Assembly (NCBI GenBank): GCA_030626025.1
Contig: DAOUPT010000006.1
Location: 1 to 64,000 of the forward strand
DNA: 64,000 nt
Reading direction: 5' to 3'
Origin: Anderseniella sp.
GTDB taxonomy: Bacteria > Pseudomonadota > Alphaproteobacteria > Rhizobiales > Aestuariivirgaceae
Shown: one piece after another, positions 29,839 to 41,805 of the stretch
How positions within the stretch are numbered: the first letter of the stretch is position 1
Layout of the letters: each line of letters starts with the position of its first letter
Notes under the pieces: generated by a model
The model's database searches: none
The model's input: the letters and a program-made list of their open reading frames with translations, nothing else
Told to the model about the DNA's origin: nothing
Translations under genes and position numbers: made by a program

Positions 29839-31668
29839 TTAATTGGCAGCAGCGTTTTTCTTAACTCCGTCCTTCTCGATAACAGCATTAAGCGGCTCAC
29901 GCTGGTCCGGCTCAATAGAGCCGGTGGAGGTTGCACCGGGCGTAGTTAAAATCTGCCCGGGGTAAATCCGGTGCGGGTTTTTAATCTGCTTTTTATTGGC
30001 TTGATAAATCGTCGTATAGGCAATGCCCTTGCCATAAATCACCCGCGAGATATTCCACAAATTGTTGCCCGGCTGAATGACAACATGGGCAACCAGTTCA
30101 GGTTTTTCTTTTTTCGGCTGATTGGTTGCGACCCGAGCAGGTGTTGCCGGTGGCGTAGGCTTTGCTGGCGGGGCAGCGGCTTTGACAGGAGCAGGCGTTG
30201 TTATGGCCGCCTGCTTTTGCGGCGCAGGCAATGCTGGGGCCTTTGTGGTTGCAGGAGCTTGCGCAGTTGCAATAACGGCGTCGGTAACCGCCTTGGCAGT
30301 TTTGACCGGCTCCTTAACCGGTTGTGGTGTTTTTTCAACAGCGACAGTTTTAACAACGACTGGCGCTTTTGCCACTTTGGCCGGTGTTTCTACCTCGGCT
30401 GAAACCGCCAGCTTGGTTGGTTTGCGGGTGCTCAACAATGCTGCCACCTTGACCGGGTCAGCCCGCACAAATGGAACAGCGGTGCGTTGGGCAACTTTGC
30501 CCTTTACATCAACTTGATCGGCCCGCAATTCATGGGTGCCTGTCTTAATCTGTTCGCGCCCGCGAAACACCCAATTCCCGTCTTTGCCAACAACGGATTC
30601 CCCGACAAACTGGTTGTCGACATAAAGCCGGATGGTTTTACCGGCTGTTGCCTTGCCTGAGAAAACAATGTCACCACGGTCATTATAGTCGACCGTGCCA
30701 AAGGTCAGTTTGGCTGATTTGGTTGGCGTGGCTAATTTGTCAGGAACTGTGACCGGGGCAACATCTTTTTTAACCGGCAGCGTTTGAGGGGCAACCGTTT
30801 CAGGAGGCGTTGACACAACCACCTCATCACCGCCCGGCTGGATTTTTGTATCACCGGTTGGTAATTTACTGGCTTTAGCAGCTTTTGGGTCCTGCTGTAA
30901 AACCGGAGCAGATTGCGGCGTTGGCAGGCTGGCCATTTTCTCACGCAATTTTGGCGGCAGTTCCAATTGAGTTTTCAGCGCCGGCGCTGCGAATACTGGT
31001 ACCGCATCCGGTGTTTGCAGGACACGGGTTGGCGCATCGGCTTTGGAAACCACGATCAAAGGTTTGTCCTTGGCATTGTCGGGCATCGCAATAAATATCG
31101 ACTGCTTGGAGCGCACGGTCTTTTTGTTTTTTCCGGTTGCCTCGACAATGAGTTCATGGCTGCCCTTTGGTACCAGTTGATCAGGTACAAAAACCCAGTC
31201 ACCCTTGTCATTGGCTTTCGATGTGCCAATGACCTTGCCATTTAGTTTCAAGGAAACGTCAGCGCCTGGTGCCGCTTTGCCAACCACCACAGCCCCGCCG
31301 TCTTCTTCAATGCGTACAATATCAAAAGTCGGGGCAACGACGCCAGATACAACCGGGTCCGGTTTTGCCTCTTGCTTTTTCTCTTGCCTGGTTTGCGGCG
31401 GATTAAACTTGGGAGCCGTTGGTGCCTTGGCTTCAATTTTTTGTTTGGGTGGCAGACTGGCCAGTTTTGTTACCGGTTTTTCAGGGGCCAATTTTTCAGG
31501 TACCGGCGTTTCTGTAGTCTTGATCTGCGGCTCGGGGATCACGAGTGGAGTTCTCTCAACCACAACCGGTATTTTTGAAGGCTGGTTCTTGGTTTGTTGC
31601 ACCACAACCAGCCCTGCAAGTGTTGTCACCGACAGGCCTACAAAAACTATTAGTGGATTAACAGCCAT
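29839..31668 (-). CDS. Membrane-anchored Ala/Pro/Lys-rich protein with Ig-like modules and C-terminal LysM
   Basis: A 609-residue protein with an N-terminal membrane anchor or uncleaved signal (LIVFVGLSVTTLAGLVVVQQ), long low-complexity stretches rich in Ala, Pro, Lys and Val, and two similar beta modules. The first runs from FDIVRIEEDGGAVVVGKAAPG to about 80 residues on; the second from DYNDRGDIVFSGKATAGKT. Both share the order G-x-A-P/T-G-x-V-x-L, then K-G/D-W-V-F, then G-x-HEL. A LysM domain (HVVIQPGNNLWNISRVIYGKG) near the C-terminus binds peptidoglycan. Probably envelope-associated; no precise role can be given. Similar LysM/Ig-like proteins are common in Hyphomicrobiales. Confidence 0.8.
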   Translation of the reverse strand: MAVNPLIVFVGLSVTTLAGLVVVQQTKNQPSKIPVVVERTPLVIPEPQIKTTETPVPEKLAPEKPVTKLASLPPKQKIEAKAPTAPKFNPPQTRQEKKQEAKPDPVVSGVVAPTFDIVRIEEDGGAVVVGKAAPGADVSLKLNGKVIGTSKANDKGDWVFVPDQLVPKGSHELIVEATGKNKKTVRSKQSIFIAMPDNAKDKPLIVVSKADAPTRVLQTPDAVPVFAAPALKTQLELPPKLREKMASLPTPQSAPVLQQDPKAAKASKLPTGDTKIQPGGDEVVVSTPPETVAPQTLPVKKDVAPVTVPDKLATPTKSAKLTFGTVDYNDRGDIVFSGKATAGKTIRLYVDNQFVGESVVGKDGNWVFRGREQIKTGTHELRADQVDVKGKVAQRTAVPFVRADPVKVAALLSTRKPTKLAVSAEVETPAKVAKAPVVVKTVAVEKTPQPVKEPVKTAKAVTDAVIATAQAPATTKAPALPAPQKQAAITTPAPVKAAAPPAKPTPPATPARVATNQPKKEKPELVAHVVIQPGNNLWNISRVIYGKGIAYTTIYQANKKQIKNPHRIYPGQILTTPGATSTGSIEPDQREPLNAVIEKDGVKKNAAAN

Positions 31669-31856
31669 CCAAAATCTCTCACCTTGTGGCAGTTGGTCTG
31701 ATCAAAGACCACCACCAGAATCTCTCCCCCCGTGTTTTGCAATTAAAGCATGTGAGGGCGGTTGGTTCAATACACATATGAGCAGCGATAAAAATGCCGC
31801 ACTCTGGTGAATCGGGTGCTTGACGAAGGGCTGGCAAACAAGCCACAAGGGAATGT

Positions 31857-32456
31857 ATGGAAAAGATTCGAAAATTATGTGTGTATTGCGGTTCAGGACC
31901 AGGTGTTGACCCGGAATATATGGCGGCAGCCAGAACCCTTGGCAAAGCAATGGCAAAAGCCGATATTGGTCTGGTCTATGGCGGTGGCAGTCTGGGTCTG
32001 ATGGGTGAAACAGCCAGAGCAGTGCTGGAGGCTGGTGGTCATGTCACCGGCATTATTCCTGAATTCCTGATCAAGCAGGAAATGATGCTTGAGGAGGTGC
32101 AGGACCTTGTGGTGACCACCAACATGCACGAGCGCAAAATGACCATGTTTGAAAGAGCTGATGGTTTTGTCGCCTTGCCAGGTGGCATTGGCACGCTGGA
32201 AGAACTGGTCGAGGTTTCAACCTGGGCTCAGTTAGGACAACACAACAAACCGATCATTGTTGCCAATGTCAATGATTATTGGGGACCGTTTATCCAGCTG
32301 CTGGACCACATGCGTGAGGAACAATTTATCCGGGTTGGTATGGCGGTACATTTTGAAGTGGTAAAAACCGCTAAAGACATTGTCCCCCGGTTCAAAACCC
32401 GCCTGCGTCAGCAAAGCCCGCAAGCTGTCGGAAAACCAATCGATAAATTCGCATAA
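31857..32456 (+). CDS. LOG-family (TIGR00730-type) Rossmann protein
   Basis: A 199-residue protein with both LOG-family signatures: VYGGGSLGLMG (GGGxxGLMG, ribose-phosphate binding) and LPGGIGTLEELVE (PGGxGTxxE, catalytic glutamate). Members hydrolyse nucleoside 5'-monophosphates at the glycosidic bond, including cytokinin riboside phosphates, so it is a probable nucleotide phosphoribohydrolase; the physiological substrate in bacteria is usually unclear. It is divergent from the LysM gene and convergent with the secreted nuclease-fold gene. Confidence 0.9.
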   Translation: MEKIRKLCVYCGSGPGVDPEYMAAARTLGKAMAKADIGLVYGGGSLGLMGETARAVLEAGGHVTGIIPEFLIKQEMMLEEVQDLVVTTNMHERKMTMFERADGFVALPGGIGTLEELVEVSTWAQLGQHNKPIIVANVNDYWGPFIQLLDHMREEQFIRVGMAVHFEVVKTAKDIVPRFKTRLRQQSPQAVGKPIDKFA

Positions 32457-32469
32457 AACGCGATACGCT

Positions 32470-32937
32470 TCAGGAAGCCGAAATCCGGGTTGCAACAATT
32501 GTCCCGTCCGGACGTGTTGCGCCCCAAAGGCCGAGCTTGCGTTTTTTCGATCGCTCCTGCTTGGCAAAATAGCGTGCCGGTGCGTTTGAAGAAGGAACGG
32601 CCCAACCGGCGTGAATCAATCCATAAGCCAGATCATACCCGCCTGCGGTGCAGGTGAATTTGCCCGACGGGTTTTGGTTGCAAATAACATTTGCCCCGGC
32701 GACCAGGTCTTTCAGACCGGCAGTGGCCAGTACACCGCAATCCAGCGGGCGGTTTTTCCAGGTACATGAGCTTCCCGGCTTGAGGCTGTGAATGTGATCA
32801 AGCCGCACGGTCTTGTTGTTGACTATCATTGTCGTGCTGTTGAGTACCCGCGGCGGGCCCGATATTGTTTCACCGGCATTAGCCGGAAAAGAGAAAAAAG
32901 ACATGGCGACCACAATCGCAGCGAACAGTTGTTTCAT
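32470..32937 (-). CDS. Secreted thermonuclease-fold protein, probably inactive as nuclease
   Basis: A 155-residue protein with a signal peptide (MKQLFAAIVVAMSFFSFPANA, cut after ANA). The body resembles a small staphylococcal-nuclease (SNase/TNase) OB fold: a strand TMIVNNKTVRLDHIHSL at the place of the usual RLxGIDAPE, later a helix with cysteines and GLIHAGWAVPSS followed by YFAKQERSKKRKLGLWG, which is the standard SNase ending. The acidic residue of the DAPE motif is missing (here HSLKPG), so nuclease activity is doubtful. Four cysteines (SSC, LDC, ICN, FTC) suggest disulfides. I chose the ATG at 32937 because it starts the signal peptide; the longer frame adds a 47-residue tail with no family match. 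Confidence 0.7.
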   Translation of the reverse strand: MKQLFAAIVVAMSFFSFPANAGETISGPPRVLNSTTMIVNNKTVRLDHIHSLKPGSSCTWKNRPLDCGVLATAGLKDLVAGANVICNQNPSGKFTCTAGGYDLAYGLIHAGWAVPSSNAPARYFAKQERSKKRKLGLWGATRPDGTIVATRISAS

Positions 32938-32959
32938 ATGAACCTCAAAAAAAGACCAC

Positions 32960-32993
32960 AAAAAACCCCCGGCGACACAAGGCCGCCGGAGGT
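32960..32993 (-). terminator. Rho-independent terminator after CNPC-P460 gene
   Basis: The minus strand reads ctccggcg-gccttgtgt-cgccgggg followed by g and a six-T run: eight pairs (one G-T wobble), a nine-base loop and a T tract. It lies 27 bases after the CNPC-P460 stop and before the start of the nuclease-fold gene, so that gene needs its own promoter or read-through. Confidence 0.82.
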
Positions 32994-33019
32994 GAATATA
33001 GTGTATTCGTTGGCAAGGT

Positions 33020-34243
33020 TTACTTGCGATACTCGTCCGGCAGGAACAACATGAAGTCGTTGTCTTCGCCACCTTCATGGCAATCGTGACAGAACTTCAA
33101 TCCACCGGAGTTTTTACCCTTTGTAATGCCAAACAGATTGCCGCCCGGCATAATCATGGCATAACGCCAGTCACCGGTAGCCTTGTTCCAGCCCTTGGTC
33201 ATTTTTTCCATCAGGAAAAGCGGACCCATTGTCGCCTGACCATTGCCGCCAACGGTAAAGCTTGGTTTGGCAAGCGTAGAGCCGGTTGGCATTTTGGTGG
33301 TTTTATCATAGCGGCCATAGGCTTTGGCACCAATCTTGTTGGCATAGTTTTGAACAAAACGTCCGCCATGGGTATCAGAGCGATAGCCGGTTTTGGAGAA
33401 CCGTTTCCAGCCACCCCATTTTTTGGCCGACCAGTGACCGGTGCTGTTATAGGCCTTTTGCAGTTTTGGTTTCAGACAATCATACAAGGCATCCATTTCA
33501 GCCGCTGACAATTCAACTTCCGGCGCTGCTGCACAAGGGTTGCATGGATTTTTAGCCGCACAAGGGTTGCAAGGGTTGCAAGCTTTTTTGGCGGCACACG
33601 GGTTGCATGGGTTACACGGCTTTTTAGCGGCGCACGGGTTGCAAGGGTTGCAAGCTTTTTTGGCGGCACAGGGGTTGCAAGGGTTACAGGCTTTTTTAGC
33701 CGCACATGGGTTGCAAGGATTGCAGGCCTTTTTGGCTGCACAAGGATTACAGGCGGCAGCTTTTTTCATACGTGGCACGTAACAAGATGTCTTTGCCGCT
33801 GCACCGCCGCCGGCAGCACATGGGTTGCACGGATTGCAAGCGCCAGCCGCACACGGATTACAAGGATTTTTAGCCGCACATGGGTTGCACGGGTTACAGG
33901 CTTTTTTAGCCGCACAAGGGTTGCACGGGTTACAGGTTTTTTTAGCTGCACAAGGGTTGCAAGGGTTACAGGCTTTTTTAGCTGCACAAGGATTGCAAGG
34001 GTTACAGGCTTTTTTAGCTGCACAAGGATTGCAAGGGTTACACGCCTTTTTAGCTGCACATGGATTGCAAGGGTTACAGGCCTTTTTGGCTGCGCACGGA
34101 TTGCAGGGGCTGCATGAGGCAGCAAAAGCGCTGGGTAGATTTGAAACTGTTCCGACGGTCAGACCTACTGCACCGGCCACCAGGCCAAGAGCAAGAGGTA
34201 CAACCGCAGCTGTAGACAATAGTTGTTTTTTAAAGGATTTCAT
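33020..34243 (-). CDS. Secreted CNPC-repeat protein fused to a cytochrome P460-like domain
   Basis: A 407-residue protein in three parts. Residues 1-42 are a signal peptide ([20 protein letters not shown], ending SAFA). Residues 44-239 are about sixteen units of the type [12 protein letters not shown] in two blocks, split by a linker [20 protein letters not shown]; roughly 46 cysteines lie here. Residues 240-407 resemble the cytochrome P460 family: [26 protein letters not shown] (Lys326 stands where P460 proteins carry the haem-linked or a nearby lysine, an inference), [23 protein letters not shown] and a C-terminal haem c site C385-HDC-H389. P460 enzymes oxidise hydroxylamine or bind NO; the substrate here is unknown. 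A strong aggaggg site precedes the ATG. I know no described role for the repeat. Confidence 0.85.
33527..34114 (-). repeat. Tandem 36-bp coding repeats (CNPC units) in the P460 fusion
   Basis: The DNA for residues 44-239 is a tandem array of near-identical 36-base units coding [12 protein letters not shown], with shortened or altered units at the ends of the two blocks (…[13 protein letters not shown]). Most differences between units are third-position changes such as tgt/tgc or aac/aat, while the protein motif is kept. The array is prone to unit gain and loss, so its exact length could vary between strains or be misassembled. Confidence 0.85.
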
Positions 34244-34265
34244 TATTCCCTCCTGGACTGAGTTG

Positions 34266-34295
34266 AAAAAGGCAAACGAGGTGTTCCCGTTTGCC
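34266..34295 (-). terminator. Rho-independent terminator between the two CNPC genes
   Basis: The minus strand reads ggcaaacg-ggaacacct-cgtttgcc-ttttt: a perfect eight-pair stem, nine-base loop and five Ts. It lies 20 bases after the stop of the small CNPC gene and just before the ribosome site of the P460 fusion, so it may reduce the second gene's expression or mark two units. Confidence 0.8.
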
Positions 34296-34315
34296 CGTTT
34301 TGTTTTTTTATTTAC

Positions 34316-34801
34316 TTAGCTTGCTGAGCAAGGGTTTTTCTTTTTAGCCGCGCAAGGGTTGCACGGATTGCACTTTTTGGCAGCGCATGGATTGCAAGGG
34401 TTGCAGGCTTTTTTAGCTGCACACGGGTTGCAAGGGTTGCAGGCTTTTTTAGCTGCACAGGGGTTGCAAGGATTACAGGCCGCTGCAACTTTTATGATGG
34501 CATCAGCATTTGGCAAGGAAGACTGACAAGGGTTTTTCTTTTTTGCTGCGCAAGGATTGCAAGGGTTACATTTTTTAGCCGCACAAGGGTTGCAAGGATT
34601 GCACTTTTTAGCTGCACATGGATTGCAGGGGTTACATTTTTTGGCTGCACAAGGATTGCAAGGATTACAGGCCGATGCGGCAAAAACCATGTCGGCACTT
34701 GCGGTAAGGCCAGCCGTAAGAGCAATGCCTCCGGTTGCAAGGCCCAAAGCGATTGGTAATGCAGCGACGGTTGAAAGCAGTTTTGTTTTGTTAGACTTCA
34801 T
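34316..34801 (-). CDS. Secreted CNPC-repeat protein, repeats only
   Basis: A 161-residue protein that is a paralogue of the upstream part of the P460 fusion. The signal peptides are alike (MKSNKTKLLSTVAALPIALGL against [21 protein letters not shown]), ending VFA-ASA. The mature part is two blocks of four units [11 protein letters not shown](A), each block closing with KKKNPC, joined by a linker QSSLPNADAIIKVAAA; 26 of 161 residues are cysteine. There is no C-terminal domain. A ggaggg ribosome site precedes the ATG. The 184 bases upstream (34802-34985) hold a TTGACA on the minus strand (34914-34919) but no convincing -10 partner. Function unknown; metal binding or disulfide cross-linking in the periplasm are possible. 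Confidence 0.85.
   Translation of the reverse strand: MKSNKTKLLSTVAALPIALGLATGGIALTAGLTASADMVFAASACNPCNPCAAKKCNPCNPCAAKKCNPCNPCAAKKCNPCNPCAAKKKNPCQSSLPNADAIIKVAAACNPCNPCAAKKACNPCNPCAAKKACNPCNPCAAKKCNPCNPCAAKKKNPCSAS
34319..34669 (-). repeat. Tandem 33/36-bp coding repeats in the small CNPC gene
   Basis: Eight units of 33 or 36 bases code [11 protein letters not shown] with or without a following alanine. The array is a duplication in itself: both halves run four units and end in KKKNPC. The unit sequence is nearly the same as in the neighbouring gene, so gene conversion or unit exchange between the two arrays is possible. Confidence 0.85.
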
Positions 34802-34985
34802 GTTTCATTTCCCTCCGTTATGACACGGGATTTTGATTGAGTTGGTCTGCCGGAATTTACCCCCGGCGGCTTAATCGACACGATTACACTAGGGGCAATG
34901 GCAAAAATAGTGTTGTCAATTTCTGTAAAAACCCTTCACGTTAGTGTGAGTGTGGGCAAAGTTTTAGTGACTTTTCACTTTGCTT

Positions 34986-35840
34986 TCAGGGAGTTTCACG
35001 CACCAACCGAAAACCAACAAGAATATGTTTGAGAAAGTCAGGACGACTGTGACCTGCCGCTGTCCGGCAAACCCCGCACCCTTTGTCATCCCATGAGCCG
35101 CCTTTTACCCTGTGGCGGGCTGCTCCAACAGGAGTTGATGTCCATTCAAACACCTGTCCGGCTCCATCAAGTAACCCGAAAGGGCTGGCCGCCTCCGGAA
35201 ACATTCCAACCGCCAACGTGTCAAACGGCCCGTGGTCGTGGCTGTTGAGTTTTTCAGGCTGAAATACATTGCCCCATGGAAAATAACGCCCGTCAGTTCC
35301 CCGCACAGCTTTTTCCCATTCTTTTTCACTGGGAAGTCGCCATTTTTGTCCGGTTTTTACCGACAACCAGCCCGCATAAGCCTGCGCATCGCCAAAAGAT
35401 ATCAGCACCACCGGGTGATCGCGGCGTTTTGCCGGGGCCTGCCGACCGGCCCAATTATGCCTTTGGGCTCGTTTGTAGGGATGGATCAACCCGTAGCCAG
35501 CCCATGTATCGGCCCCGACCCAGGGGCGACGATGGCGGGTTTCAGACAGGAACAATTCATATTGGGCATTGGTAATGACGGTTCGGGTGATTTCAAATAC
35601 CGGTAAAAATAACTCCTGGCGTTTGGCTTCACCATCATACCAACCCTGCTTGCGGGTTACAGAATGGCCATAAGCTTTTTCATCTAGTTGATAACCATAT
35701 TCGCGCTCGGCGGCATTAGAACCGAAAATGAACTTTCCGGCCTTGACCATCACAACGTCAGGGGCTTCAAATGCAAACCCACAGGTTAAATTGGCCACCA
35801 CGCTGATAAAAACACAGATGCTGGCAATTAAAACTCTCAC
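34986..35840 (-). CDS. Periplasmic FGE/SUMF1-like (formylglycine-generating-enzyme family) protein
   Basis: A 284-residue protein with an N-terminal signal (VLIASICVFISVVANLTCGFA) and a full FGE-sulfatase (SUMF1) domain. Family blocks are VMVKAGKFIFGSNA, FEITRTVITNAQYELFL, HPVVLISFGDAQAYAGWLS, WRLPSEKEWEKAVRGTDGR, YFPWGN, PFGLLDGAGQVFEWTST and the end block KGGSW...GFRLV. In true FGE two copper-binding cysteines lie in that end block; here C255 fits the second one, the first is replaced, and a new CGVC pair (C255, C258) is present. It may therefore be a modified oxidase or a non-enzymatic relative. The GTG start at 35840 overlaps the upstream stop (GTGA), and the CNPC genes follow downstream. 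Confidence 0.85.
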   Translation of the reverse strand: MRVLIASICVFISVVANLTCGFAFEAPDVVMVKAGKFIFGSNAAEREYGYQLDEKAYGHSVTRKQGWYDGEAKRQELFLPVFEITRTVITNAQYELFLSETRHRRPWVGADTWAGYGLIHPYKRAQRHNWAGRQAPAKRRDHPVVLISFGDAQAYAGWLSVKTGQKWRLPSEKEWEKAVRGTDGRYFPWGNVFQPEKLNSHDHGPFDTLAVGMFPEAASPFGLLDGAGQVFEWTSTPVGAARHRVKGGSWDDKGCGVCRTAAGHSRPDFLKHILVGFRLVRETP

Positions 35841-36592
35841 GCAGTTTGCTGTATCGGCGCGGTGGCTTCCAGTGCGTTATTTACCGCTTCAACCTGGTCG
35901 ACAATGTTAATCGGCAAAAATGAAGTCATCTCCAGTTTGCGGTCTTCGTAAATGTCTGTGCCCATATGCAATGCGGCCCAGTTTTTCAGTGTCTTGTCAC
36001 GCTCGAGCAACAAAGCCTCAATCTGGGGCCGGAACAATGCCAGCAACGCTGTCATCCATTGATTGGTCGCCAGACAAGGGAAGGTGTGATCCATTTTGAA
36101 ATCATCAAGCATGGCAATGGTGTCTTGCGCCGTATAAAAGCTTTCATCGGTCACCCAGCGGTTGACGGTGAACAGTGAAATCGGCTGGCCCGGCTTGTTC
36201 ATTGCAATAGCAATCAAATGGGCCAGCGCATCATTGCCCGATGGAATGGTTGCCTCACCTTTATAATCAATGGGCTTTAACCCTTTGGCCATACCTTTGG
36301 CCCGCAGGAATGTGTGAAAATGTCCATGCTCACCCCCTTCAGGCCGATGCGAGTGATAATAGTATTGAGAATGGGTCCCGCCGTCATAGACATCACCGGA
36401 TGGATAATGATCAAACTCATAAAACGTGCCCTGATGGGCCAGACACTGACCAACAACATTGGCACTGGCTTTATCAAGCAACCGCTGACACTCGTTCACT
36501 ATCTCACCGGCTTGCGCCATTTTCAAAAGACGGTCGCGGCTTTGCCCCGCTAACACAGCTTCAGTGTCAAACTTAATCGATGTAATACTCAT
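35837..36592 (-). CDS. Conserved histidine-rich protein, probably DUF6969 family
   Basis: A 251-residue cytoplasmic-looking protein without signal peptide. The striking part is GDVYDGGTHSQYYYHSHRPE followed by GGEHGHFHTFLR, which puts six histidines within about 25 residues in a pattern suited to metal binding. Later conserved-looking blocks are LFTVNRWVTDESFY and FPCLATNQWMTALLALF. I recall this HGHFHTFLR pattern from the DUF6969 family, with no known function. The ATG at 36592 has a good aggag site seven bases upstream; the longer frame to 36724 lacks one. It heads a two-gene unit with the FGE-like gene (GTGA overlap). Confidence 0.75.
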   Translation of the reverse strand: MSITSIKFDTEAVLAGQSRDRLLKMAQAGEIVNECQRLLDKASANVVGQCLAHQGTFYEFDHYPSGDVYDGGTHSQYYYHSHRPEGGEHGHFHTFLRAKGMAKGLKPIDYKGEATIPSGNDALAHLIAIAMNKPGQPISLFTVNRWVTDESFYTAQDTIAMLDDFKMDHTFPCLATNQWMTALLALFRPQIEALLLERDKTLKNWAALHMGTDIYEDRKLEMTSFLPINIVDQVEAVNNALEATAPIQQTA

Positions 36593-36741
36593 GGCCTGAT
36601 CTCCTAACAGATTTACAATGTGGCGCGAAAACAACGATTGTTCAAGACTTTGTGAATATGCCCACACATTTCGCCAACCCTGCCTGCTCGCTATGTCGGC
36701 AACATTGATCTGGCGCACTATCACCGATATTTGAACAGACG

Positions 36742-37209
36742 TTAAACCGGATACCCCGTCCAGGGTTTAACCGTCCGCAACGCGAGGGAAGATTGTATCC
36801 GCGCAACATTAGGCAATCGGGCCAGCCGCTCGCGGTGGATTTCTTCATAATGCCGGGTTGAACGGGCAGCGATTCGCAACATGTAATCAGCCTGACCGGA
36901 CATCAAATGGCATTGCAGAATTTCCGGAATGGCGTTGACTGCTTTTTCGAACTCTTCAAGCTCTCCCTCACTTAACCGGGTCAGTGACACCTCGACAAAA
37001 AACTCCATAGGATAACCAATCACATGCCGGTCCAGTATTGCCTCATAACCAAGAATGGCTCCAGCTTCCTCCAGCAACCTGATGCGGCGGTGGCAGGCCG
37101 AGGTCGAAAGCCCGGCCTTGTCGGCCAGAATGTTCAGCGACTGACGGCTATCGCGCTGCAGCATCGAAAGGAGCATCTTATCGATTTTATCGAATTTGTC
37201 TAATTTCAT
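36742..37209 (-). CDS. Lrp/AsnC-family regulator
   Basis: A 155-residue regulator: an N-terminal helix-turn-helix (DKIDKMLLSMLQRDSRQSLNILADKAGLSTSACHRRIRLLEEAGAI, read in segments) and a C-terminal RAM/AsnC ligand domain (FVEVSLTRLSEGELEEFEKAV, LMSGQADYMLRI). It is divergent from alanine dehydrogenase, and the 135-base gap is very AT-rich with A- and T-tracts, as Lrp-type sites often are. By analogy with AldR-type proteins it probably controls ald in response to alanine or another amino acid. This is inferred from position. Confidence 0.9.
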   Translation of the reverse strand: MKLDKFDKIDKMLLSMLQRDSRQSLNILADKAGLSTSACHRRIRLLEEAGAILGYEAILDRHVIGYPMEFFVEVSLTRLSEGELEEFEKAVNAIPEILQCHLMSGQADYMLRIAARSTRHYEEIHRERLARLPNVARIQSSLALRTVKPWTGYPV

Positions 37210-37344
37210 CCGGTTTAGATAGCATAAATTAGAAAAATTTACAAAAAAATCGACATTCCACAGGCAACTTCCGAATTTTTTTTCAAAAGATTTTCCCTAT
37301 GCTCGGGCAATCATTTTCATGCGACCATGCAACGGAGAAAAGAC

Positions 37345-38463
37345 ATGCAACTCGGCGTACCAAAAGAGATAAAAGTAAAAGAATTTCGTGTTGGCATGAC
37401 CCCAACCGCAGTTCGCGAACTAACCAGCCGTGGCCATCAGGTGATGGTTGAAACCAATGCCGGTGTCGGTATTGGCATGACCGATGCAGACTATGAAGCA
37501 GCCGGTGCAACCATTTCAGCCGATGCCAAAACGATCTTTGAAAAATGCGAAATGATCATCAAGGTCAAGGAACCCCAAGCAGTTGAACGGGCCATGCTGC
37601 GTGAAGGTCAATTGCTATTTACTTATTTGCACTTGGCACCCGATCCTGATCAAACCAAAGATCTGGTTGATAGCGGTGCAACCTGCATTGCTTATGAAAC
37701 GGTTACCAGCCCGTCAGGTGGTCTGCCCTTGCTGGCCCCGATGTCAGAAGTGGCCGGGCGTCTTTCCATTCAGGCCGGTGCCTATCATCTTGAAAAACCT
37801 CATGGTGGCCACGGTCTTTTGCTCGGCGGCGTGCCTGGTGTTGAACCGGCAAAAGTTGTAGTGATTGGCGGCGGTATGGTTGGTCGTCACGCAGCCCACA
37901 TTGCCATGGGCATGGGTGCAGATGTCTGGGTAATTGATCGCAACGTCGATGTCATGCGTGACCTCTGGCATCAGTTCGGCCGCAACCTCAACACAGTTTA
38001 TTCCACTGCCGATGCCATCGAAGAGCATTGCGTGCGGGCTGATCTGGTTATCGGTGGTGTGCTTTTGCCCGGTGCTGCAGCGCCCAAGCTGATCACCCGT
38101 GATCTGGTTAAAAAAATGAAACCCGGTTCGGTGATTGTCGATGTGGCTATTGATCAGGGCGGTTGCTGTGAAACCTCAAAAGCAACAACCCATGATGACC
38201 CGATCTTTGTGGTTGATGATGTCATTCACTATTGTGTTGCCAATATGCCAGGCGGTGTTCCCAAAACATCAACCTATGCCCTCAACAACGCCACCCTGCC
38301 ATTCATTATTTCTTTGGCAAATAAAGGCTGGCGCAAAGCCTGTCAGGATGACCCACATCTGCTGGCCGGCCTCAATGTTCATGCTGGCAAGGTGACCTAC
38401 AAAGCGGTTGCTGACGCATTGGGTTATGAATTTCAAGATCCCAACGACGCTGTAAAAGCCTGA
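37345..38463 (+). CDS. ald: Alanine dehydrogenase
   Basis: A 372-residue NAD-dependent enzyme that interconverts L-alanine and pyruvate plus ammonium. The N-terminal MQLGVPKEIKVKEFRVGMTP, the substrate lysine region IIKVKEPQ, FTYLHLA, the NAD fold VVVIGGGMVGRHAAHIAMGMGA and the VDVAIDQGGCCETSKATTHDDP signature are all present. The ATG at 37345 follows a cggag site; six upstream codons from 37327 are not used. With xsc, a TauE-type exporter and pta nearby, a likely role is regenerating pyruvate from the alanine made by a taurine-pyruvate aminotransferase, which is not in the window. Confidence 0.96.
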   Translation: MQLGVPKEIKVKEFRVGMTPTAVRELTSRGHQVMVETNAGVGIGMTDADYEAAGATISADAKTIFEKCEMIIKVKEPQAVERAMLREGQLLFTYLHLAPDPDQTKDLVDSGATCIAYETVTSPSGGLPLLAPMSEVAGRLSIQAGAYHLEKPHGGHGLLLGGVPGVEPAKVVVIGGGMVGRHAAHIAMGMGADVWVIDRNVDVMRDLWHQFGRNLNTVYSTADAIEEHCVRADLVIGGVLLPGAAAPKLITRDLVKKMKPGSVIVDVAIDQGGCCETSKATTHDDPIFVVDDVIHYCVANMPGGVPKTSTYALNNATLPFIISLANKGWRKACQDDPHLLAGLNVHAGKVTYKAVADALGYEFQDPNDAVKA

Positions 38464-38476
38464 TCAAACACTATTT

Positions 38477-38507
38477 CTGTCATGCCGGTTTGATATCGGC
38501 ATGACAG
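38477..38507. repeat. GTCATGCC-type palindrome, copy 1
   Basis: ctgtcatgccg-gtttgatat-cggcatgacag is a perfect 11-pair inverted repeat with a nine-base loop in the gap between the convergent ald and GNAT genes. A related element is found at 48178-48206. It lacks a T run but could stop transcription from both sides. Confidence 0.75.
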
Positions 38508-38510
38508 GGT

Positions 38511-38536
38511 CTGGCCTGCGATTTCCGCAAGGCCAG
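38511..38536 (-). terminator. Hairpin directly after the GNAT stop codon
   Basis: On the minus strand ctggcct-tgcggaaatcgc-aggccag forms a seven-pair stem with a further gcg/cgc pairing inside the loop. It abuts the stop codon of the GNAT gene and lies next to the palindrome at 38477-38507. There is no T run, so it is only a possible terminator. Confidence 0.45.
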
Positions 38537-39835
38537 TTACTTCAACAGGACAAGTGCCAGCTTGCGCAAGAAACTAGTATTCTTGATTTTCTCCTTGGTC
38601 CACAAAAGCAACCGCCTGCCGGCATACTCCAGCCGACCGAGGTTTGAGTGTGGTACAGCAACAGTCACAAGTTGTGTTGTATCGTTGCTCCAGTCTTTCT
38701 TGTAGAATTCATCGCCAATAGTCATATCGAAACGCTTTAACTTGCGTGAATGGCTCCAGTCAAACAACTGATACAGCAACAACAGTCCCGGTGAATGCTG
38801 ACCAAACTCTTGCCGCTCAAACCCGCAGACCTGATAGTAAAATGTGTCATGGTGAACAAACCCGAACACACTGGCGACCAGCTTGCCGCCGCAGCGGAGT
38901 TCGAACTGATGCGTGTTTTTCTGCATGCCGTCATCGGCAACCAGCGCGTGATAAAACCTGGCAACATCAGGTGTGTCCATCCGGTGTAAAGTACCAGCAT
39001 CATTCAGGTTGGTAATTTTCAGGGCCAGCAATTGGCTCATATGTTCCTGGCGTTTTGCTGGATCGGTAACTTCGATAAGTTCAACATCCCCTTTTTTTGC
39101 GAGTTTGCGTAAGCGGCGTTCTATATTGTTTGCAGTTTTGTTGCTACGCAGCAGGCGGGCACATTGAGACCAGTTTTCAGCCTGAGGAAAATTGAGGGCA
39201 TGAGTACTGCTGGTGCAATTAAAGTGCGCCAGGTGGGTCATAGGGTTTTTCACACCAATAATACTGACCGGCTGCCGGTCCAGCCAAACCAGATCAATTT
39301 TGCATTCAATAGTGGCCAGAATGTCTTTCCAAACAACCTCAAAGCCTGCCGTGCTGAGGCTAGCGGCAAAGTCATCCTGAACCAGTGGGGCCAGATAATC
39401 GGCCATGCCATCGCCGATAAAACTCACAACTGTGCCAAAACGACCCTTTTTGAGACACAGGGGAGCCAGCATCAGTATCTCGCCGGTCACATCGCGCACG
39501 ACAACCATATGGAGACGGACACCGTCTTTTTTCCCAACGGTTTCATACCATGTCCGGCAAAAAGAAAATCTTTGATAAATGAAGCACGCTGCGTTGTTTT
39601 CAAATTGCAGCCACAAGTCTTTTACCTCATCAAAGCTGCGATAAACTTCCATCTGTAAGTCCTTAAAATCATTGGTTTTCTGCCGATTAGGAGAAAAGTT
39701 TCCATGATTTGATCCGATCTCGCGGTTCAAAGCAGAAAGTTTTGCCAGTACAACCGGTTCACGGGCGTTCCAGTTGCAGTCAGTGCTGGTTTTATCACTA
39801 ATACTGTATGACCGTTCAAATGCTTTGCTGTACAT
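38537..39835 (-). CDS. GNAT-fold protein, CelD/BcsL type
   Basis: A 432-residue protein of the CelD/BcsL (FemAB-related) acetyltransferase group. After a 60-residue variable N-terminus comes DEVKDLWLQFENNAACFIYQ followed by FCRTWYETVG, then the first GNAT fold, a helix-rich section RLLRSNKTANNIERRLRKLAKKGDVELIEV, and the second fold with HQFELRCGGKLVASVFGFVH, FYYQVCGFERQEFGQHSPG and MTIGDEFYKKDW, all typical. Relatives are linked to exopolysaccharide or cellulose synthesis, but no such gene is nearby. Substrate unknown. Confidence 0.82.
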   Translation of the reverse strand: MYSKAFERSYSISDKTSTDCNWNAREPVVLAKLSALNREIGSNHGNFSPNRQKTNDFKDLQMEVYRSFDEVKDLWLQFENNAACFIYQRFSFCRTWYETVGKKDGVRLHMVVVRDVTGEILMLAPLCLKKGRFGTVVSFIGDGMADYLAPLVQDDFAASLSTAGFEVVWKDILATIECKIDLVWLDRQPVSIIGVKNPMTHLAHFNCTSSTHALNFPQAENWSQCARLLRSNKTANNIERRLRKLAKKGDVELIEVTDPAKRQEHMSQLLALKITNLNDAGTLHRMDTPDVARFYHALVADDGMQKNTHQFELRCGGKLVASVFGFVHHDTFYYQVCGFERQEFGQHSPGLLLLYQLFDWSHSRKLKRFDMTIGDEFYKKDWSNDTTQLVTVAVPHSNLGRLEYAGRRLLLWTKEKIKNTSFLRKLALVLLK

Positions 39836-39906
39836 AATTTATTCCAAACTATTATCCAGACCGCGGTTCGATTTTAAGTGTATCTGACAACCACCATGCA
39901 AGTTTG

Positions 39907-39975
39907 GGGCCAGCTGGCCCTTAACTGGAGGGATTCAAGATTGATAACTGGCACCTTTTCGAAATTGTCAATTTC
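39907..39975. promoter_or_regulatory. Two dyads in the xsc leader
   Basis: The 194-base gap before xsc has a perfect palindrome gggccagctggccc (39907-39920) and a perfect dyad gaaattg-t-caatttc (39961-39975), 55 bases before the start codon. Either could be an operator for a sulfonate- or taurine-responsive regulator. No -35/-10 pair is clear. The ribosome site is aaaggg at 40016-40021. Confidence 0.4.
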
Positions 39976-40029
39976 AGCTAGCGTGGTCTCAAGAAATTTT
40001 TTAAAAAATTATTACAAAGGGTTACCGCC

Positions 40030-41805
40030 ATGAAAATGACAACAGAAGAAGCATTCGTAAAAGTGCTGCAGATGCATGGCATCGAGCACGGGTTTGGAAT
40101 TATCGGCTCGGCCTTTATGCCGATTTCCGATTTGTTTCCCAAGGCGGGTATTACCTTTTGGGATGTGGCACATGAAACCAATGGTGGCCTGATTTGTGAC
40201 GGTTATACCCGCACCACCGGCAAAATGGCCATGGCCATTGCCCAGAACGGCCCCGGCATTACCGGTTTTGTCACCCCGATTAAAACCGCTTACTGGAACC
40301 ACACCCCGATGTTGCTGGTGACGCCACAAGCTGCCAATAAAACCATCGGTCAGGGCGGTTTTCAGGAAGTCGAACAAATGGCGCTGTTCCGTGACATGGT
40401 TTGCTATCAGGAAGAAGTGCGTGATCCATCGCGGATGGCCGAAGTGCTCAACCGGGTGATTAACAAGGCGTTACGCGGCTCAGCCCCGGCCCAAATCAAC
40501 GTGCCGCGCGATATGTGGACCCAGGTGATTGATATCGAACTACCTCAGTCGGTCAGTTTTGAACGCCCGGCCGGTGGTGCCGAGGCAATCACCAAGGCAG
40601 CAGCTTTGTTGTCGAATGCCAAATTCCCGGTCATTTTGTCGGGTGCCGGTGTGGTTATCGGTGGCGCCATTGATGATTGCGTGGCACTGGCTGAAAAGCT
40701 CGATGCACCGGTTTGTAGTGGCTATCAGCACAATGACAGTTTCCCCGGCAGCCATCCGCTTGCCGCCGGACCGCTTGGCTACAACGGTTCCAAAGCAGCG
40801 ATGGAGTTAATCTCTCAAGCCGATGTGGTGCTGGCTCTCGGCACCCGGCTTAATCCGTTTTCGACCTTGCCTGGTTATGGCATTGATTACTGGCCCCAGA
40901 ATGCTGAAATCATTCAGGTCGATATTAATATCGACCGCATTGGTCTGACCAAAAAAGTCTCGGTTGGTATTTGTGGCGATGCCCAAAAAGTTGCCCAAAG
41001 CATTCTGGCGCAACTATCCAGCACTGCCGGTGACGCTGGTCGCGAGGAACGCAAAACCCTTATCCACCAAACCAAGTCGTCCTGGTTGCAGGCGCTGTCA
41101 AGCATGGACCATGAGGATGATGATCCCGGCACCTCTTGGAATGCGGATTCACGTGTTCGCGATGCCGAGCGTATGTCACCACGCCAGGCATGGCGCGCCA
41201 TTCAGGCCGGTCTGCCCAAGGAAGCGATTATCTCCAGCGATATCGGCAACAACTGCGCCATTGGTAATGCCTATCCAACTTTTGAAGAGGGCCGCAAATA
41301 TCTGGCTCCCGGCCTGTTCGGGCCTTGTGGTTACGGATTTCCGGCCATTATTGGTGCAAAAATCGGTTGTCCGGATGTGCCGGTCGTTGGTTTTGCCGGT
41401 GACGGTGCTTTCGGTATCTCAATGAATGAAATGACCTCGGTCGGTCGCGATGAATGGCCAGCAGTAACCATGGTGATTTTCCGCAACTACCAATGGGGTG
41501 CTGAAAAACGCAACACCACATTATGGTACAGCAACAACTTCGTTGGCACCGAACTTGATCCGCACCTAAGCTACGCCCGTGTCGCTGAAGGTTGCGGTCT
41601 CAAAGGGGTTACGGTCAACACTCAAGCTGAACTGACGCAGGCGCTGGAAACAGCCTGTGCCGCCCAAAAAGACGGCGTCACCACCTTCATCGAAGTCATC
41701 CTCAATCAGGAACTCGGCGAACCCTTCCGCCGCGATGCCATGACCGCCCCGGTCGAAGTCGCCGGTATCGACCCGGCCGACATGAAGCCCCAAAAAGGTG
41801 CTTGA
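40030..41805 (+). CDS. xsc: Sulfoacetaldehyde acetyltransferase
   Basis: A 591-residue thiamin diphosphate enzyme that converts sulfoacetaldehyde and phosphate into acetyl phosphate and sulfite, the key C-S bond cleavage of taurine, isethionate and choline-sulfonate-type catabolism. The start MKMTTEEAFVKVLQMHGIEH and the blocks FGIIGSAFMPISDLFP, WDVAHETNGGLICDGYTR, QNGPGITGFVTPIKTAYWNH and NKTIGQGGFQEVEQM are Xsc hallmarks that set it apart from acetolactate synthase. The TPP motif is GFAGDGAFGISMNEM ... NYQWGAEKRN. Length is normal. It is followed by a long hairpin at 41820-41862. Confidence 0.97.
   Translation: MKMTTEEAFVKVLQMHGIEHGFGIIGSAFMPISDLFPKAGITFWDVAHETNGGLICDGYTRTTGKMAMAIAQNGPGITGFVTPIKTAYWNHTPMLLVTPQAANKTIGQGGFQEVEQMALFRDMVCYQEEVRDPSRMAEVLNRVINKALRGSAPAQINVPRDMWTQVIDIELPQSVSFERPAGGAEAITKAAALLSNAKFPVILSGAGVVIGGAIDDCVALAEKLDAPVCSGYQHNDSFPGSHPLAAGPLGYNGSKAAMELISQADVVLALGTRLNPFSTLPGYGIDYWPQNAEIIQVDINIDRIGLTKKVSVGICGDAQKVAQSILAQLSSTAGDAGREERKTLIHQTKSSWLQALSSMDHEDDDPGTSWNADSRVRDAERMSPRQAWRAIQAGLPKEAIISSDIGNNCAIGNAYPTFEEGRKYLAPGLFGPCGYGFPAIIGAKIGCPDVPVVGFAGDGAFGISMNEMTSVGRDEWPAVTMVIFRNYQWGAEKRNTTLWYSNNFVGTELDPHLSYARVAEGCGLKGVTVNTQAELTQALETACAAQKDGVTTFIEVILNQELGEPFRRDAMTAPVEVAGIDPADMKPQKGA

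Follow-up and report, generated by a model that had tools for sequence, protein, structure and literature searches.

Bufferins are secreted copper-binding cysteine proteins that are modified by MNIO enzymes, and rare natural fusions link Buf1, Cytochrom_C and FGE-sulfatase domains (PMC12452194). The formylglycine-generating enzyme (FGE) is a Cu(I) bis-thiolate enzyme that acts on the Cys of CxPxR motifs (PMC12123546). Here we describe a locus that brings together parts of the same kinds. It lies in a window of 64,000 nucleotides (positions 1 to 64,000 of contig DAOUPT010000006.1, Anderseniella sp., assembly GCA_030626025.1), where five genes on the minus strand encode a His-rich DUF6969 protein, an FGE-like protein, a short protein made of CNPC repeats, a second CNPC-repeat protein fused to a P460-type haem domain, and a degenerate protein similar to staphylococcal nuclease (SNase-like). 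We find that CNPC arrays, usually fused to a c-type haem domain, DUF6969 and, in alphaproteobacteria, the FGE-like protein constitute a real conserved genetic module. It seems to deal with metals or sulfur beyond the cell membrane in a manner for which we found no description.

How does the module compare with described systems? As in bufferin clusters, exported Cys-rich precursors (here with signal-peptide-like N-termini and 26 or 49 Cys) are encoded by tandem genes. However, CNPC arrays stand where Buf1, Buf2 or EGKCG patterns would be expected, and DUF6969 replaces the MNIO partner set. MNIO (PF05114) is absent from the window's own genome, which rules out a bufferin cluster; it occurs in 18 of 61 module genomes, in none of them listed beside an array. 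With cytochrome P460 and the c'-beta cytochromes (PMC11928373) the haem domain shares its modelled fold, a CxxCH motif and a Lys at the cross-link position, but Cys arrays and a CxVPR segment modelled as docking on it belong to the same polypeptide, and Gly occupies the distal carboxylate position. The FGE-like protein has the PF03781 fold of FGE/SUMF1 and two Cys in its C-terminal part, which differ in forming a CGxC pair, and it comes with neither a sulfatase link nor a CxPxR substrate. Some arrays carry a SoxA/TsdA-type haem and share with SoxAX-SoxYZ thiosulfate oxidation the idea of a Cys carrier, yet the module has no Sox operon, its arrays hold many Cys where SoxY has a swinging arm, and in most alphaproteobacteria the haem is P460. 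Bacterial metallothioneins are similarly rich in Cys in CxxC motifs, whereas the array proteins are exported, much longer, haem-fused and accompanied by dedicated neighbours. We judge the combination to lie outside the known kinds, although its final function may prove a familiar one such as metal buffering. A first-pass annotation of the window knew of no description of such a set, and a search of open-licence papers found none, nor any mention of CNPCNPC, the CNPC motif or DUF6969.

The same annotation had proposed asking whether the neighbours of CNPCNPC proteins recur beyond chance. They clearly do, by label-free clustering of neighbours, by counts across genomes and by distance within loci. 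Scanning 84,980 species genomes for CNPCNPCA returned at least 119 stretches; the carriers listed are mostly Alphaproteobacteria (Rhodospirillales, Kiloniellaceae, Sneathiellales, Hyphomicrobiales), joined by Granulosicoccaceae, Hahella, Halospina, Vreelandella, Entotheonella, Poribacteria and a few others. When the open reading frames (ORFs) around the 119 stretches listed were clustered without labels, DUF6969 (at least 42 loci) and the FGE-like family (at least 20 loci) emerged as the top two neighbour families. In an evenly drawn sample of 385 alphaproteobacterial genomes, CNPCNPC occurs in 35, DUF6969 in 89 and an FGE orthologue in 32. DUF6969 is present in 32 of the 35 genomes with CNPCNPC compared to 57 of the 350 without (odds 55, p=1e-19); among the 32 genomes with an FGE orthologue, 30 have DUF6969 (p=4e-19) and 21 have CNPCNPC (p=9e-18), p values that all ignore phylogeny. 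By family, DUF6969 is present in 19 of 20 that bear CNPC. About a quarter of the 57 DUF6969 genomes without CNPCNPC, with nearly all the FGE-bearing ones among them, proved in looser searches to have further arrays or P460 proteins of the same clade.

Physical linkage tells the same story. An array gene lies within 6 kb of DUF6969 in 33 of 59 DUF6969-anchored loci, against an expectation of about 0.7% for each, bearing in mind that the anchored regions are the best-scoring 60 of roughly 100 DUF6969 places and may favour close relatives. Where DUF6969 and FGE form close pairs, 40 of 47 share a strand and 34 of 47 are no more than 200 bp apart. The five genes of the module recur in the same order in two other genomes (L303, L304) and, with one added gene, at another two loci (L307, L308). 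Looser arrangements exist as well: a relative from the same family (G022) keeps DUF6969 and the P460 array protein without FGE, and one genome (G177) has both DUF6969 and arrays, unlinked.

Within the window, ORFs were found for all five minus-strand genes that had been placed there. The DUF6969 gene (35837..36592; 251 aa; PF22308, E=1.2e-77) comes first and overlaps the gene for the FGE-like protein (34986..35840; presumably exported, 284 aa; PF03781, E=3e-37) by four bases, GTGA at 35837..35840, an arrangement of stop and start that had been read, correctly as to its presence, as translational coupling. The short CNPC-array protein follows (34316..34801; 161 aa, 26 Cys), then the fusion of CNPC array and P460 haem domain (33020..34243; 407 aa, 49 Cys) and the SNase-like protein (32470..32937). 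Between the two array genes lies an intrinsic terminator (34270..34296), a hairpin followed by TTTTT with a folding energy of -16.8 kcal/mol (z=-4.2), and a second one (32965..32993; 12-bp stem plus T tract, z=-4.0) stands past the fusion gene. Because strong intrinsic terminators follow both array genes, the set is not one operon but at least two or three transcription units. The proposed five-gene module therefore holds as regards its genes and their linkage and needs trimming as a unit: it is interrupted by two internal terminators, and its recurrent core is the DUF6969-FGE pair plus the two array genes, with the SNase-like gene belonging to a subset.

Genome-wide, CNPCNPC has 20 sites, each of them inside one of the two array genes; the same pattern reversed, as a control, has 0. 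Both proteins start with a signal-peptide-like segment (34679..34801 in the short protein, 34121..34243 in the fusion protein), in the short protein with the family motif LLST...P...G, which marks the array and P460 proteins of the module: it is found in 59 of 186 array proteins versus 18 among some 9,400 frames of other kinds, and these 18 include several truncated family members. In the fusion protein, block 1 of the array (33800..34114) is built on a 12-residue unit, the commonest spacing, and block 2 covers 33524..33748. AlphaFold2 gives both blocks and the signal region a predicted local distance difference test (pLDDT) score of only 30-40, and the array blocks are modelled as disordered. 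For this reason we dropped a beta-helix of the Buf_EGKCG kind, an argument weakened by the poor alignment of the repeats. At one locus (L226:10848-12146) the fusion protein has CGAC/CGACGAC arrays instead of CNPC, and the architecture, with CxVPR insert and P460 domain, is kept.

Turning to the haem domain, two adjacent CNPC-repeat genes, one with a P460-like domain, had been reported, and we agree. Taken alone, the domain of the window protein (33020..33523) falls below the Pfam cut-off; close relatives pass PF16694. Most of it is modelled with a pLDDT above 90, and Foldseek with the fusion-protein model retrieves the Methylococcus cytochrome P460 (6hiu, McP460; E=5e-6) plus c'-beta structures. 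Judged by this model, it is a true P460/c'-beta fold, and alignment A3 places the haem site C385-HD-C388-H389 at 33077-33091. We assigned haem residues by comparing the family with the c'-beta structure 7s5o and with the residue table of a P460 review (PMC11928373), where the 7s5o assignment is one weak alignment whose numbering is shifted by a constant 20 at both of its checkpoints. Lys326 (33266-33268), invariant in A3, falls at the haem cross-link position, and Gly351, aligned beside an insertion, falls with moderate certainty at the position of the catalytic distal carboxylate. The haem is thus predicted to be cross-linked and not to oxidise hydroxylamine, and a reading as hydroxylamine oxidase was dropped because of this Gly. 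Array-free P460-like proteins with the same LLSS signal segment and no CxxCH also occur near DUF6969 (L233:8592-9728, L218:4763-5884).

The two array blocks are separated by a CxVPR insert (33749..33796, Cys154), modelled as a strand plus helix docked on the haem domain (pLDDT 93, residues 151-160). Of 69 complete P460 proteins with arrays, 60 have CxVPR. A pattern match finds that 57 of these 60 also have a Cys in helix 1 of the haem domain, and reading the remaining three by eye brings the count to 60 of 60; among other proteins, 19 of 20 lack both Cys. Since the two Cys co-occur in this way and the insert is modelled docked, they are probably bonded to each other as a disulfide within the protein, which in the window copy would be C154-C256.

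DUF6969 is a highly conserved family. The window protein scores 260.5 bits against a Pfam gathering cut-off of 27, and an alignment of 38 homologues (A1) contains six invariant His (62, 80, 82, 91, 93 and 125), located on adjacent predicted strands or in nearby loops. Its AlphaFold2 model is of high quality (pLDDT 92.9, predicted template modelling score 0.91) and matches nothing in the PDB by Foldseek (best E=2, TM<0.2) or among viral models (best E=0.19), nor does the sequence match PDB sequences; "new fold" here means a model with no counterpart in these two structure libraries. No signal peptide was found in the protein, which is therefore presumably cytoplasmic. Since 57 of the 89 DUF6969 genomes are without arrays, DUF6969 must have a wider role, with at least one other function. 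On Azospirillum plasmids (L313, L315), for example, no arrays accompany it; its neighbours there are a DUF2336 protein and an Mla-type ABC transporter, and more distant homologues are found on Sinorhizobium and Burkholderia plasmids. A c-type cytochrome gene adjoins DUF6969 in 22 loci (L188, L196-L247), every time on the opposite strand.

The FGE-like protein carries a conserved C255-G-V-C258 (alignment A2). Across the family GC[GA]xC is found in 51 of 52 readable members, with one further member masked by N; the sole clear exception (L012) is likewise without CxVPR. In canonical FGE the Cys pair is five residues apart.

Taken together, we infer that the module is best read as a poly-thiol/haem system of the periplasm, served by dedicated partners, whose targets are thiophiles: copper-like metals or sulfane sulfur. 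In such a system the arrays, presumably exported, would be disordered periplasmic poly-thiol carriers, and the thiophilic species bound to them would most likely be soft metal ions similar to copper; the 26 plus 49 Cys in CxxCxxC arrays are consistent with a metal/thiol role. Through the tethered haem, electrons would pass between array thiols and redox partners in the periplasm. Outside the membrane, the FGE-like protein with its CGxC might be a copper-binding thiol oxidase or a maturation factor for the array proteins, and cytoplasmic DUF6969, with its invariant His cluster, might act on or sense the precursors prior to export. The lean towards copper comes from FGE chemistry and from the bufferin parallel, with its Buf1|Cytochrom_C|FGE fusions. 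The explanation as a whole, which adds to the observed linkage the putative thiol carriers, haem wiring, and roles for FGE and DUF6969 in maturation, is a tentative one to which we give somewhat less than an even chance.

Several observations weigh against it. The Pfam scan of 96 flanking ORFs turned up no recurrent copper efflux, copper sensor or multicopper oxidase gene, which led us to drop a copper operon. The FGE-like protein lacks the canonical Cu-binding Cys pair, having the conserved CGxC instead, and the only substrate-like motif for it is one whose Cys probably serves a structural disulfide. Six genomes have the fusion protein but no FGE (G202, G208, G261, G286, G412, G484). Finally, for part of the family YeeE, DUF302 and the SoxA/TsdA-type haem favour sulfur over copper; copper is throughout a candidate metal. 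The first-pass annotation had suggested a periplasmic metal/haem or cysteine-modification system, with FGE acting on cysteines. This is still plausible as a general idea, but four points in it change: DUF6969 has no signal peptide, the CGxC of the FGE-like protein is non-canonical, CxVPR is better read as a structural disulfide, and sulfur rivals copper.

One scenario, which we consider rather unlikely, is that the arrays are sulfur carriers, in effect a many-armed SoxYZ, whose haem oxidatively loads sulfide or thiosulfate on Cys while YeeE and DUF302 move or process the sulfur. It draws on other lineages and neighbours. In gammaproteobacteria, Entotheonella and some alphaproteobacteria a SoxA/TsdA-type cytochrome c (PF21342) takes the place of P460 as the domain joined to the array, often next to DUF6969; PF21342 is above cut-off in array proteins of four loci (L119, L102, L290, L058), and SoxA TIGR04484 matches in L119 below its cut-off (E=3e-7). 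Near 105 distinct DUF6969 loci, we find YeeE (PF04143) at 13 and DUF302 at 7, alongside cytochrome c (26), cupredoxin-like (18) and SNase-like (10) genes; the recurrent non-core neighbours cytochrome c, YeeE and DUF302 are periplasmic or redox proteins, and beyond the core, neighbours are unrelated. However, the window module is flanked by neither YeeE nor DUF302, and its fusion protein has no SoxA/TsdA haem domain. No part in sulfur chemistry is known for P460, which is the more frequent fusion partner, and SoxYZ, SoxB and rhodanese are not recurrent in the 96 flanking ORFs, among which no other family recurs except DUF2336 and scattered housekeeping genes. As to the cupredoxin-like neighbour ("CUP", A5), the label was given by eye; it has no Pfam or credible PDB match, and no copper claim uses it.

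Alternatively, maturation might resemble that of ribosomally synthesised and post-translationally modified peptides (RiPPs), with DUF6969 as a new metalloenzyme that recognises the LLST...P...G segment and modifies Cys before Sec export, and FGE finishing the job outside. The family-specific motif, rare elsewhere, would suit such recognition, as would the presence of this His-rich cytoplasmic protein in nearly all array genomes, even where unlinked, and bufferins offer a precedent for exported, enzyme-modified Cys proteins (PMC12452194). Yet no Cys modification is known here, and most DUF6969 genomes are without arrays, so we consider this improbable. No more likely, in our estimate, is its most ambitious form, in which a new-fold multi-His DUF6969 metalloenzyme would modify CNPC-array Cys in the cytoplasm, the FGE-like protein would finish outside, and the product would be a haem-wired poly-thiol polymer with new post-translational chemistry. 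If true, metal or sulfur carriers of the periplasm would gain a new, RiPP-like class.

Could the system instead be a sink for nitrosative or oxidative stress, the P460 haem binding or turning over NO, hydroxylamine or peroxide and the arrays providing a thiol reservoir? The P460/c'-beta fold and the invariant Lys at the cross-link site would fit, but by alignment the carboxylate needed for hydroxylamine oxidation is a Gly, the haem is swapped for a SoxA-type domain in other lineages where arrays and DUF6969 stay, and genes of NO metabolism are not recurrent in the flanking ORFs. We give this only a small chance.

Far less credible still is the notion that FGE makes formylglycine from the CxVPR Cys of the fusion protein, CxVPR being a shifted CxPxR. 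It is the only such motif near the module, where no CxPxR was found; Arg is at +4 in 56 of 60, FGE adjoins the fusion gene in many loci, and the five genomes whose fusion protein has no CxVPR (G022, G245, G353, G442, G519) also lack an FGE orthologue. Against this, Pro is at +3 instead of +2, and a Cys that is likely disulfide-bonded would be a poor FGE substrate. Given the coupling to the haem-domain Cys, the docked insert and the six CxVPR genomes without FGE, we set this idea aside. That the genes are accidental neighbours, as might be argued from DUF6969 and arrays also being found apart, is refuted for DUF6969, FGE and the arrays by the enrichment statistics and repeated synteny and has next to no chance of being right.

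The module is present in about 9% of sampled alphaproteobacterial genomes, plus some gammaproteobacteria, Entotheonella and others, and is carried by many marine and soil bacteria. For DUF6969, a widespread and uncharacterised family whose fold has no recognisable relative in the PDB, it provides a first genetic context. It also gives examples of unrelated c-type haems attached to cysteine polymers modelled as disordered, and it resembles the recently described bufferins while lacking the enzyme that modifies them. Cultured carriers, which include Aestuariispira insulae CECT 8488, Denitrobaculum tricleocarpae R148, Parvularcula lutaonensis and Halospina denitrificans, allow direct tests.

Among the less constant parts, the SNase-like protein, presumably exported and with no Pfam match of its own, had been called a degenerate SNase fold. 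Among 15 aligned relatives, 5 match PF00565 (best E=2e-6), which makes the fold a candidate one for the window copy. The catalytic Asp/Arg/Glu are not invariant columns and, read by eye, are replaced in the window copy; what is invariant in the family is four Cys (C58, C67, C86, C96).

Arrays also occur in other settings. Poribacterial arrays carry a YceI domain (L019:4218-5108, L063:4520-5557; NPC arrays, PF04264), apparently an independent use of the array. In a second context, seen at eight loci (L017, L020, L033, L059, L091, L111, L124, L294), a short CNPC protein lies between a histidine kinase and a pair of FAD disulfide-reductase-like and TVP38-like proteins, with DUF6969 and FGE not adjacent.

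A search of the window at 31500-38500 returned no known RNA or riboswitch, and PADLOC anti-phage defence models gave no match for the module, so a defence-system reading was dropped. The adjoining genes (36742-37209 and 37327-41805) encode alanine dehydrogenase (TIGR00518), a divergent Lrp-type regulator and sulfoacetaldehyde acetyltransferase Xsc (TIGR03457, above cut-off), and are likely a taurine/sulfonate degradation cluster, which is not kept near other module copies. Lastly, long open frames run antisense to the CNPC arrays (33825-34319 and 33540-33782, plus strand); they are by-products of the repeats that could be called genes and hence carry a risk of mis-annotation.

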